DNA of 41,797 nt from Bdellovibrionota bacterium (GTDB lineage: Bacteria; Bdellovibrionota_G; JALEGL01; DATDPG01): positions 1 through 41,797 of the forward strand of contig DATDPG010000014.1 in assembly GCA_035292885.1 (NCBI GenBank), written 5' to 3'. Shown piece after piece: positions 1 to 39,193 of this stretch (positions within the stretch are counted from its first letter, which is position 1; every line of letters begins with the position of its first letter). The notes beneath the pieces are model-generated. The model ran no database searches. It was not told the origin of the DNA and was given only the letters and a program-made list of their open reading frames with translations. Position numbers and translations under genes: made by a program.

Positions 1-99
1 AAAGCCCGTGCTCTTTGTTCTCGGGTCAAAATGTCCTCAACGTACCTATTCAAGTACGCTTCCGGGCATTTTGACCCTGCGGCCTCGATCACGGGCTTT
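1..99. repeat. Nested imperfect palindrome (element 0), possibly cut by the window edge
   Basis: Three nested inverted repeats are visible: AAAGCCCGTG (1-10) with CACGGGCTTT (90-99), GGGTCAAAATG (23-33) with CATTTTGACCC (67-77), and CGTAC (41-45) with GTACG (54-58). The core around 35-59 (TCCTCAACGT ... CAAGTACGC) closely matches the core of the palindrome at 20717-20885. It could form one long hairpin. The left end may continue before position 1. It is followed by about 110 bases with no gene that I recognise. Confidence 0.75.
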
Positions 100-208
100 T
101 CGCTCGGTCTCGCGACGAATCCATTTATGAGACCGGTTCTAGAATTATTATTCGATGATGCCCGAAGATTGCGTATTGCGGTCTTATATACGTACGTACG
201 ACATGATA

Positions 209-19694: not shown

Positions 19695-20719
19695 TGAGTT
19701 ACCTGCAGTACTACGGCCTCGAACAGGAACCTTTCTCGAACGCTCCCGTCAGCCGATTCTATTTTCACTCGAAGCAACATGATCAGGCGCTTCTGCGTCT
19801 CCGGCGCGTGACGGATCAGATGAAGGGTCTGGCCGTCCTGGTCGGAGATATCGGCGCCGGCAAGACGACGCTCGCGCGAAAGATGCTCGATAGCCTTCCG
19901 GAGAGTGATTATGAAGCTGCGTTATTGGTGATCATTCACTCTTCGATTAGTGCTCAGTGGCTGCTTCGGCGGATCGCCCAGCAATTGGGAGTTCAAAAGC
20001 CGGCGGAGACCAAGCTTCAGATTTTGAGTCAGCTCTATCGGCGGCTGCTTCAAATCGCGGATAGCGGCAAAAAAGCGGTCGTATTGATCGACGAGGCGCA
20101 GATGTTACAGACGCGGGAGATCATGGAAGAGTTCCGCGGCCTACTCAATCTGGAAATCCCCGATAAAAAGCTGATTACGTTTATTTTCTTCGGTCTTCCC
20201 GAAATCGAAGACACCCTGAAACTCGATCCTCCTCTCCAACAACGAGTGGCGTTCAAATACCGACTGGATGCCTTTGATTCCGAATCGACGCGTCGCTACA
20301 TCGAACACCGCTTGAATCTTTCGGGTGCGACGAGAGCGATTTTCGATGCAAGCGCCATTGATGCCATCCATCAATATTCAAGGGGAATTCCGCGGTTGAT
20401 TAACACGCTGGCCGACAATGCGTTGTTTGAAGGATTTATCTTGAAGAGTGAAACGATTCGGACGGAGATCATCGAAAACATCGCCGTGGATCTTGGGCTT
20501 TCCGTTGCGCAAAAACGTGAGCTCCGGGTTGTCGGCAGCGATCAACCGGTCACCGTCGTGGACGAGGTATCGTTCGGAAATCCATTGGCGGAACCGCCGC
20601 TCATCCCTGAAGTGGAACTGGCGGAAGAGAAACCCGCGGAGCAACCCTTTGAGCGGTCCGAAACGCCGGAAAACGAGGATATTGATTCCATTCTCGCCGG
20701 CCTCGAAGAGAAGCTTTAG
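19694..20719 (+). CDS. ExeA/GspA-type AAA ATPase
   Basis: A 341-residue P-loop ATPase. The opening MSYLQYYGLEQEPFSNAPV is the ExeA/GspA signature. Walker A is GDIGAGKTT (51-59), Walker B VVLIDEAQ (129-136), and sensor 2 lies in YSRGIPRLINTLADNAL (about 229-245). The C-terminal 60 residues are acidic and Pro-rich; no membrane segment or peptidoglycan-binding domain is visible, unlike full GspA. ExeA-type proteins help assemble secretins across peptidoglycan, which would suit the PilQ or CpaC secretins in this window. The stop codon TAG is part of the following palindromic element. Confidence 0.88.
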   Translation: MSYLQYYGLEQEPFSNAPVSRFYFHSKQHDQALLRLRRVTDQMKGLAVLVGDIGAGKTTLARKMLDSLPESDYEAALLVIIHSSISAQWLLRRIAQQLGVQKPAETKLQILSQLYRRLLQIADSGKKAVVLIDEAQMLQTREIMEEFRGLLNLEIPDKKLITFIFFGLPEIEDTLKLDPPLQQRVAFKYRLDAFDSESTRRYIEHRLNLSGATRAIFDASAIDAIHQYSRGIPRLINTLADNALFEGFILKSETIRTEIIENIAVDLGLSVAQKRELRVVGSDQPVTVVDEVSFGNPLAEPPLIPEVELAEEKPAEQPFERSETPENEDIDSILAGLEEKL

Positions 20720-20885
20720 TGTCCCGAGTCCGACATATCTTGATAGACGGCCGCCGCTGCATCCCGGCTGGCTGCGTTGCTCCTCCTCAGCGTGCGGCCC
20801 TGCAAGTACGCCATCGTCGTCGCGCCTTGCCATCCGGGTGCATCGGTGTCCTTTGTTATCAAGCTATCTCGGACTCGGGACACTA
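20717..20885. repeat. Long imperfect palindrome (element A)
   Basis: The outer arms TAGTGTCCCGAGTCCGA (20717-20733) and TCGGACTCGGGACACTA (20869-20885) are perfect inverted repeats, and pairing continues inward (CTTGATA with TATCAAG; CATCCCGG with CCGGGTG-type bases). The centre contains TCCTCAGCGT ... CAAGTACGC, shared with element 0. The left tip includes the TAG stop of the ATPase gene. No reading frame of note lies inside. Its arms recur around hicA-hicB at 38367 and 39188. It may be a MITE/REP-type mobile palindrome and may also act as a transcript end. Confidence 0.85.
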
Positions 20886-29783: not shown

Positions 29784-30197
29784 GTGAAGTTCGTGATGCG
29801 GCAATCGTTTCTATTCCTGGTCGTTCTTTTCGTTTTTGCCGCGAGTTGCGGAAAGCCGAGGGTTCAGAAATTATCCGAGCGGGCCGATTCCTACAATCGG
29901 GCGCTTCGGTGGTCCAGCATCACGGCGGCAAGCACGTTAATCGCCGAAGATGTTCGTCGATCGGTGATTCAGGACTTGCTGCAAAAGATCGGCCGGAATC
30001 GAATCGTGGACTACTCGATAGTCGACCTTGGTGTGGATCCCGAAGAGATCAAAGCGAGCATCCTGGTCGAGTTCAGCTATTACGGAATATCCGATCAGGA
30101 CCTGAAATATCGCCAAGAAGTTCAAAACTGGGCGTGGGATTCACGGCAGAGGGATTGGTTTCTGCGCGAAAGCCGAGATCTTCCCGCGCCGAAGTAA
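29784..30197 (+). CDS. Putative small lipoprotein
   Basis: A 137-residue protein with a signal peptide ending FAASC (Cys 22). The mature part is mixed alpha/beta with a helix (SERADSYNRALRWSSITAAS) and strands IVDYSIVDLGVDP and KASILVEFSYYGI, and ends QNWAWDSRQRDWFLRES. The pattern is like small NTF2/cystatin-type periplasmic domains, but I cannot assign it. GTG 29784 is used; an ATG at 29796 is possible. The stop codon TAA touches the palindromic element that follows. Confidence 0.75.
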   Translation: MKFVMRQSFLFLVVLFVFAASCGKPRVQKLSERADSYNRALRWSSITAASTLIAEDVRRSVIQDLLQKIGRNRIVDYSIVDLGVDPEEIKASILVEFSYYGISDQDLKYRQEVQNWAWDSRQRDWFLRESRDLPAPK

Positions 30198-30362
30198 GGA
30201 CCCGTGACAAAATAACCTAGACATTTTTGCTTGGTCTTTTGAACCAGCTCTTCGTTGTTCGTCCTCGCGTTAGTGCCTCTGGCTAGCGCTTCGTCCTCAC
30301 GCCTCGATCTGATTCAAAATCCGTTGCGCAAAAATTGTCTACCTTATTTTGTCACGGGTCCT
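30197..30362. repeat. Long imperfect palindrome (element B) between convergent genes
   Basis: AGGACCCGTGAC (30197-30208) pairs with GTCACGGGTCCT (30351-30362). The pairing continues through AAAATAA/TTATTTT-type bases, GACATTTTTGC with GCAAAAATTGTC (to about 30230 and 30328), and TTTTGAACCAGCTC with GATCTGATTCAAAA. The core carries TCGTCCTCGCGT, related to elements 0 and A. It fills the whole gap between a plus-strand stop (30195-30197) and a minus-strand stop (30368), so it may serve as a two-way terminator. Confidence 0.85.
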
Positions 30363-30367
30363 AATGT

Positions 30368-38354: not shown

Positions 38355-38366
38355 GGGGGATACTAT

Positions 38367-38410
38367 CGCGAGTCCGACATGCCTTGATAGTCAGTCGCCG
38401 CTACGTCCCG
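38367..38410. repeat. Left arm of inverted-repeat element C
   Basis: GAGTCCGACAT (38370-38380), CTTGATAG (38383-38390) and CGCCGCTACGTCCCG (38396-38410) match the left arm of element A (20724-20765) with a few differences, in the same orientation. The arm is complementary to the right arm at 39141-39188 (GAGTCCGA with TCGGACTC; CTTGATA with TATCAAG). Confidence 0.8.
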
Positions 38411-38429
38411 ACTCGATCCAGAAGGTTTT

Positions 38430-38855
38430 TCATGCCGCAAGGCGGATATCGATATTCTCTCCCAGAGCTTCGCTGATCGTAACAAGAGTCTTGACGGTCG
38501 GGTTTGATTTACCCGGAGTTTCCAACTTCTGAAGTTGTTGAAACGTGATGCCGATCCGTTTAGCAAGCTCCTTCTGCGTAAGTCCATGCCTCCGGCGTTC
38601 CTGGCGTATCAGCAACGGGATTAATACATCTTCATAGGGAGTAACCCACTCATACCGCTTGCTTCGTCGAACCTTCGAACGAGGCAGATCCCATTTCGGA
38701 TCACGCGCTTCCTCCAGATATAGGCTCATTGCTTCCCGCGCATTTCGGCGAGCTTCATCCCTGGTCGCTCCGTCACTAAAGCACCCCGGGAGATCCGGAA
38801 ATTCAACGGAGTAACGAGTGCCATCTTTATAGATCTTTGCTTGATACCGAATCAT
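38430..38855 (-). CDS. hicB: HicB-family antitoxin with XRE DNA-binding domain
   Basis: A 141-residue antitoxin. The N-terminal HicB domain (about 1-65) shows RYSVEFPDLPGCFSDGATRDEARRNAREAM, the partial RNase H-like fold that covers the HicA active site. A C-terminal XRE helix-turn-helix (about 82-135, RHGLTQKELAKRIGITFQQLQKLE) should bind the operator upstream of hicA. Its start overlaps the hicA stop by four bases (ATGA). The toxin-first order is the usual one for hicAB. Its DNA target is likely the perfect palindrome at 39053-39072. Confidence 0.93.
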   Translation of the reverse strand: MIRYQAKIYKDGTRYSVEFPDLPGCFSDGATRDEARRNAREAMSLYLEEARDPKWDLPRSKVRRSKRYEWVTPYEDVLIPLLIRQERRRHGLTQKELAKRIGITFQQLQKLETPGKSNPTVKTLVTISEALGENIDIRLAA

Positions 38856-39043
38856 AAGAGTTTCTCTCCCGTCTGTTTTTCTATCGCGCGCACCAATCCA
38901 ATTCCCAAATCGTGGTTGGCGTGGACAGGCACCTCCGTCATTTTTCCCTCCTTAACCAGTTTGACATGAGAACCTCGCTGGCTTTTCACGACCCATCCTC
39001 GCTTTCTCAGGATTTTGATGACCTTCTTTCCCGAGATGGGCAT
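38852..39043 (-). CDS. hicA: HicA-family mRNA interferase toxin
   Basis: A 63-residue toxin with a double-stranded RNA-binding-like fold. MPISGKKVIKILRKRGWVV and the catalytic-His segment SQRGSHVKLVKEG are diagnostic. HicA cuts mRNAs in translation. I use ATG 39043, the usual MPxSGKxV start; an in-frame ATG-like start at 39061 would add six residues inside the operator. No ribosome-binding site precedes the ATG, and the promoter is so close that the message may be nearly leaderless. It looks intact. Confidence 0.92.
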   Translation of the reverse strand: MPISGKKVIKILRKRGWVVKSQRGSHVKLVKEGKMTEVPVHANHDLGIGLVRAIEKQTGEKLL

Positions 39044-39052
39044 TCGGCATGT

Positions 39053-39089
39053 ATACAGCAATTATGCTGTATTTCAAGACTTTAGGCAA
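39053..39089 (-). promoter_or_regulatory. hicAB promoter with palindromic operator
   Basis: On the minus strand TTGCCT (39084-39089) and CATAAT (39061-39066) are spaced by 17 bases. The -10 box lies inside a perfect palindrome, ATACAGCA-ATTA-TGCTGTAT (39053-39072), ending ten bases before the hicA ATG. A repressor bound here, most likely HicB through its XRE domain, would block RNA polymerase. Confidence 0.7.
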
Positions 39090-39102
39090 GCGGATGCCTC
39101 TA

Positions 39103-39137
39103 TGTAAAAAGAAAAGGGCCAACCTTCCGCCCGGCCC
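39103..39137 (-). terminator. Rho-independent terminator on the minus strand
   Basis: On the minus strand GGGCC (from 39137) pairs with GGCCC (39120-39116) across a 12-base loop and is followed by a T-rich run (TTTTCTTTTT, 39115-39106). It would stop transcripts coming from the helicase gene at 39194-40345 before they enter hicA. Confidence 0.75.
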
Positions 39138-39140
39138 CCC

Positions 39141-39188
39141 GGTCGCATCGGCGTCCTTTGTTATCAAGCTATCTCGGACTCGGGACAC
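39141..39188. repeat. Right arm of inverted-repeat element C
   Basis: From GCATCGG (39145) to CGGGACAC (39188), this is almost base-for-base the right end of element A (20840-20883), with one clear difference (GGCGTCC instead of GGTGTCC). The end lies five bases from the stop codon of the helicase gene (39194-39196). Confidence 0.85.
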
Positions 39189-39193
39189 GAGGG

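Follow-up and report, generated by a model that had tools for sequence, protein, structure and literature searches.

Palindromic elements of a Bdellovibrionota genome share a structured core with Correia/NEMIS elements and with palindromes of about a dozen bacterial phyla

Introduction

Bacterial miniature inverted-repeat transposable elements (MITEs) are usually treated family by family or species by species, as decayed insertion sequences with an empty centre. Several described systems resemble the elements reported here. Enterobacterial ERIC sequences (127 bp) are likewise imperfect palindromes with TA ends, and transposons of the IS630/Tc1-mariner group likewise target TA. RUP of Streptococcus pneumoniae, a MITE of IS630-Spn1, is small and non-coding, targets TA and carries the terminal inverted repeat (TIR) of a resident IS630 element (PMC2229807). 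Correia/NEMIS (CREE) shares with our elements an imperfect palindrome (about 105-156 bp), TA ends, an intergenic position and a directional core, and differs from them in its TIR, TATAGTGGATTAA, and in the IHF site of its longer form. Correia elements are known only from Neisseria and their mover is stated to be undetermined (PMC2649163); a role of their transcripts and RNase III in cleavage and mRNA stability has been reported (PMC10969869, PMC2649163).

Here we describe three palindromes, elements 0, A and B, in a window of 41,797 nucleotides, contig DATDPG010000014.1 of a Bdellovibrionota bacterium. Unlike IS630/Tc1-mariner transposons, they encode nothing.

Results and Discussion

Three families of palindromes

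Element 0 (1..141, plus strand) comprises most of a palindrome of about 182 bp with the TIR GAACCGGTCTCATAAAT and a flanking TA at 140-141. The initial annotation had confined it to 1-99; it reaches 139-141, and its left end is lost at the contig start (position 1). Element A (20717..20885, plus strand) reads TA-GTGTCCCGAGTCCG...CGGACTCGGGACAC-TA, and element B (30195..30363, plus strand) reads TA-AGGACCCGTGAC...GTCACGGGTCCT. A genome search recovered about 16 copies of family 0, about 17 of A and 3 of B, plus fragments. Alignment of copies defined sharp ends at TA-GTGTCCCGAGTCCG for A, TA-GAACCGGTCTCATAAAT for 0 and TA-AGGACCCGTGAC for B. The palindromes measure about 170-182 bp, and complete family-0 copies elsewhere in the genome about 178-182 bp. 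All three are MITE-like in being shorter than 500 bp, devoid of coding capacity, inverted at their termini, present in multiple copies and set in unrelated flanks. Most copies of A and 0 are flanked by TA, although without an empty site a target duplication looks the same as part of the palindrome. Against 200 shuffled sequences, each of the three has a far better fold (z of -5.5, -6.2 and -7.7 for 0, A and B, respectively).

Some stretches depart from this plan. The element at 840-1050 of L093 (C47) has family-0 arms and a centre nearer to that of A (Z of 26 to 0 and 5.3 to A), and by sequence is apparently a mosaic of the two. Mini-palindromes of about 30-55 bp at L096 (about 1588-1640) and L300 (about 300-330) have A-type ends only and no core. 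A Longimicrobiales chromosome (L124, 4718-4938; L136, 6991-7460) carries the element as 172-bp copies arranged head to tail in tandem. In the window, left and right half-arms of A type (38361..39191, no strand assigned) flank a short ORF and, after it, a gene for a HicB-like antitoxin, which looks like an A element with its centre swapped for genes, as if for a toxin-antitoxin pair. Directly beside element 0, at 240-860, lies a two-gene unit resembling by eye a Phd/PIN-type toxin-antitoxin pair.

Two unpaired strands are the constant part of the core

The initial annotation had proposed that the three elements join different arms to related cores. The core strings lie where it placed them, within 1-2 bases (TCCTCAACGTACCTATTCAAGTACGC at 34-59, TCCTCAGCGTGCGGCCCTGCAAGTACGC at 20784-20811 and TCCTCGCGTTAG...CTAGCGC at about 30262-30288), and the string of GTT-G/C-TC type that it saw ahead of each takes the forms GTTCTC, GTTGCTC and GTTGTTC. 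Copies and alignments bear out that the arms are unlike and the centre common, and a genome scan with TCCTCNNCGTN{6,18}GTACGC returned the expected enrichment, with 24 matches, all belonging to families 0 and A, against 1 for the reversed control (3.1 Mb). A second core pattern gave 12 matches against 0 in its control. What had been singled out within the centre needs correction, however: the aligned CGTAC/GTACG stem varies with compensation, and it is the unpaired strands flanking it that stay constant.

These two strands, TGCGTTGCTCCTC and TCGTCGCGCCTT, show no pairing with each other; around the stem they make up an internal loop that measures about 16 x 16 nt. In element A they read TGCGTTGCTCCTCCTC (20773..20788) and ATCGTCGTCGCGCCTTG (20813..20829). 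The core of element B (30251..30305) consists of the loop TTCGTTGTTCGTCCTC, the stem GCGTTAG/CTAGCGC and the loop TTCGTCCTCACGCCTC, and matches a covariance model of the core with E=1.7e-5. Element 0 has the inner core TCCTCAA-CGTAC...GTACG-C at 34..59, and its outer left loop strand, aligned with A, is TTTGTTCTC at 14..22 (TGCGTTCTC in sister copies); all these features are on the plus strand. Across additional copies with other arms (C202, C206, C130, C52, C28, C174 and C47) the left strand TGCGTTGCTCCTCnnTC and the right strand TTnnTCGTCGCGCCTT remain constant and are followed by the outer helix. The enclosed stem takes compensated forms such as CGTAC/GTACG, GTTAG/CTAGC, GAATAC/GTATTC and GAAAATCC/GGTTTTC, among others, and helices within and outside the loop change freely, in a compensated manner. 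An additional helix divides this loop in family 0 (11 bp) and in C28 (5 bp). These extra helices sit at facing positions of the two strands, as the alignment of L050, a family-0 variant, with A also shows; facing insertions in both strands would be difficult to account for without true pairing of the two sides. Note that the link between families 0 and A is drawn from alignments of diverged copies. The covariance model did not retrieve family 0, because of the extra helix.

The initial annotation had also predicted covariation in the stems. Among 57 cross-phylum cores aligned plainly with MAFFT, before any realignment, both sides had changed at 14 of 15 pairs, with 172 double-change cells against 79 in shuffled controls. 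After realignment of the same cores by the model, a step that leans towards structure, the counts were 226 and 94.5 and the scores 0.436 and 0.157, and every slid register scored far lower. Stems were also swapped inside a single genome (G216), between GTGTC/GACAC and CCCGC/GCGGG. Arms paired better with their own partners (12.0) than with swapped ones (6.0). Part of the loop conservation among the 80 database loci follows from the search pattern itself. None of 4227 Rfam families matched the elements.

Distribution across phyla

Searched against about 85,000 species genomes, the pattern CGTTGCTCNTC-N14-44-CGTCGCGCCTTG returned at least 120 stretches, against about 1 expected by chance (up to about 4 with base composition considered), by our own estimate. 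The matches listed span about a dozen phyla with the two-strand core. They come from Acidobacteria, Gemmatimonadota, Elusimicrobia, Omnitrophota, Myxococcota, Nitrospirae, Eisenbacteria, Krumholzibacteria, Verrucomicrobia, Binatia, Deltaproteobacteria, one actinobacterium and many Beta- and Gammaproteobacteria, the last including cultured isolates. Variovorax, Ramlibacter and Iodobacter are among the cultured carriers. Since many carriers are metagenome-assembled genomes, single taxon assignments may be wrong. Nearly all matches listed are flanked by complementary arms that differ between taxa; one, L181, looks like a chance match in coding sequence. In a sample of 385 genomes a strict pattern gave 21 matches in 6 genomes, the source genome included, and 0 in the control. 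The strict pattern had 0 matches in 2.9 million viral contigs and the core of A had none among phage or plasmid records, and carriage by phages or plasmids was rejected on these searches. Two chromosome-size records, NZ_CP119142.1 (N. gonorrhoeae, 2.17 Mb) and NZ_CP134663.1 (E. coli, 4.9 Mb), stand in the plasmid collection under the label of plasmids.

Kinship with Correia elements

The covariance model was built from cross-phylum stretches with Neisseria left out. On a complete N. gonorrhoeae chromosome its matches numbered 13, with a best E of 0.0012, and 13 of 13 proved by BLAST to be Correia elements; these copies are not independent of one another and count as a single event. Elements A and B also align to Correia (Z of 5.0 and 6.0, respectively). 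The Correia TIR is absent from 0, A and B, and the arms differ, so the three elements are relatives of Correia by their core and are not themselves Correia elements. As judged from sequence, the shared core makes Correia part of a cross-phylum superfamily. The statement of the initial annotation that no named family has this layout was only half true: a model of their core retrieves a named family. ERIC resembles the elements by eye and was rejected as a member, as the model retrieved none of the 19 ERIC places on an E. coli chromosome and alignment gave Z of at most 2.6.

MITEs, IS630 MITEs and Correia are already known. A search of the open-access literature found no report of the core beyond Neisseria, nor of a structured core that unites Correia with palindromes of about a dozen phyla.

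Terminal repeats and insertion sites

Five contigs of the genome start with an identical 139 bases that hold the C-terminus of an IS630-family transposase, assigned by similarity to annotated IS630 transposases, and then the end TAGTGTCCTGAGTCAG, to be compared with TAGTGTCCCGAGTCCG of family A. The C-terminus at these contig ends finishes in TAGTGTCCTGAGTC, which equals the end of family A but for one base. The shared TIR of about 14 bp links the same-genome IS630 to family A only, and similar ends occur on elements of other genomes. The assembly holds no full IS630 body with the repeat of A, and no transposase sharing a TIR with family 0 or B was found in the genome. The two IS630 genes found with Pfam (C95 and C203) were rejected as movers of A, 0 and B, as their terminal repeats differ.

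In 16 of 25 copies an ORF of at least 100 amino acids has its stop codon within 6 nt of an element edge, some of these stops being created by the element itself; the corresponding figure for free TA sites in the window is 22 of 168 (13%). About half of the 16 stops lie wholly outside the element, and the rest overlap with its TA. An element that enters a stop codon at its TA would restore the stop, as the elements start with TAG or TAA.

Origin and role of the core

Given the copies with their TA ends and palindromy, the common loop strands, the covarying helices, the IS630 end of A type and the place of Correia, we consider it probable that these palindromes belong to an IS630-type MITE superfamily that extends across phyla, includes Correia/NEMIS and has a structured core under selection. 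Elements 0, A and B would be non-autonomous and moved in trans by TA-targeting IS630/Tc1-type transposases, and we infer that such enzymes move all the families, the arms of each following the terminal repeat of its own transposase. The centre would be an inherited module, in which a hairpin stem adjoins a large internal loop, whose two unpaired strands are conserved, and an outer helix closes the loop; this module would be shared by a superfamily of about a dozen phyla with Correia/NEMIS among its members. Selection would keep the module in its folded state, be it an RNA hairpin in a transcript or extruded or single-stranded DNA. The core may be a recognition site, most likely one bound by a widespread host factor or by the mobilisation machinery. 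Copies inserted at stop codons, with TA-G or TA-A remaking the stop, could build up harmlessly at gene 3' ends.

A special form of this explanation, which we hold tentatively, is that the core acts as RNA, with copies co-transcribed at gene 3' ends and governing mRNA stability by way of RNase cleavage, a role reported for Correia/NEMIS (PMC10969869, PMC2649163). The position of copies at stop codons and the Correia literature on RNase III are in its favour. Arm mismatches of A-C exceed those of G-T on the printed strand by 171 to 84 (42 to 21 in families A and 0), which corresponds to G-U on the opposite strand, but these counts are biased by the pyrimidine-rich loops, so that as a guide to RNA over DNA the excess is confounded by loop base composition. 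Orientation relative to the upstream gene shows no clear bias, and a match in Rfam is lacking.

It is rather unlikely that complementarity is kept by quasi-palindrome correction at the DNA level (template switching or gene conversion between arms), with the core shared by descent and horizontal transfer instead of selection on the fold. Long palindromes are prone to correction of this kind, and the arms are well matched inside single copies. Correction should, however, either have erased the non-complementary loop strands or left them to drift, yet they are alike in families with no arms in common. Intrinsic transcription terminators, also hairpins at gene 3' ends, are a very improbable identity for elements that lack a T-run after the hairpin and occur in multiple copies with near-identical arms. 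Chance or compositional likeness of unrelated palindromes, conceivable for strings so short and pyrimidine-rich, is refuted by the reversed-pattern controls (0-1 matches) and hardly credible beside model E-values as low as 2.5e-14.

Returning to the superfamily with a selected core, it is quite possible, if short of probable, that the loop module has a function as a structured nucleic acid, that a factor conserved in most bacterial phyla recognises it, that palindromes carried it from one transposase, and hence one set of arms, to another, and that Correia is one branch of this history. Two unpaired strands that stay constant as every surrounding helix changes, within unrelated arms and in a dozen phyla, suggest that the centre of these elements has a function. 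Correia elements, for their part, gain a wide kinship and a testable link to IS630.
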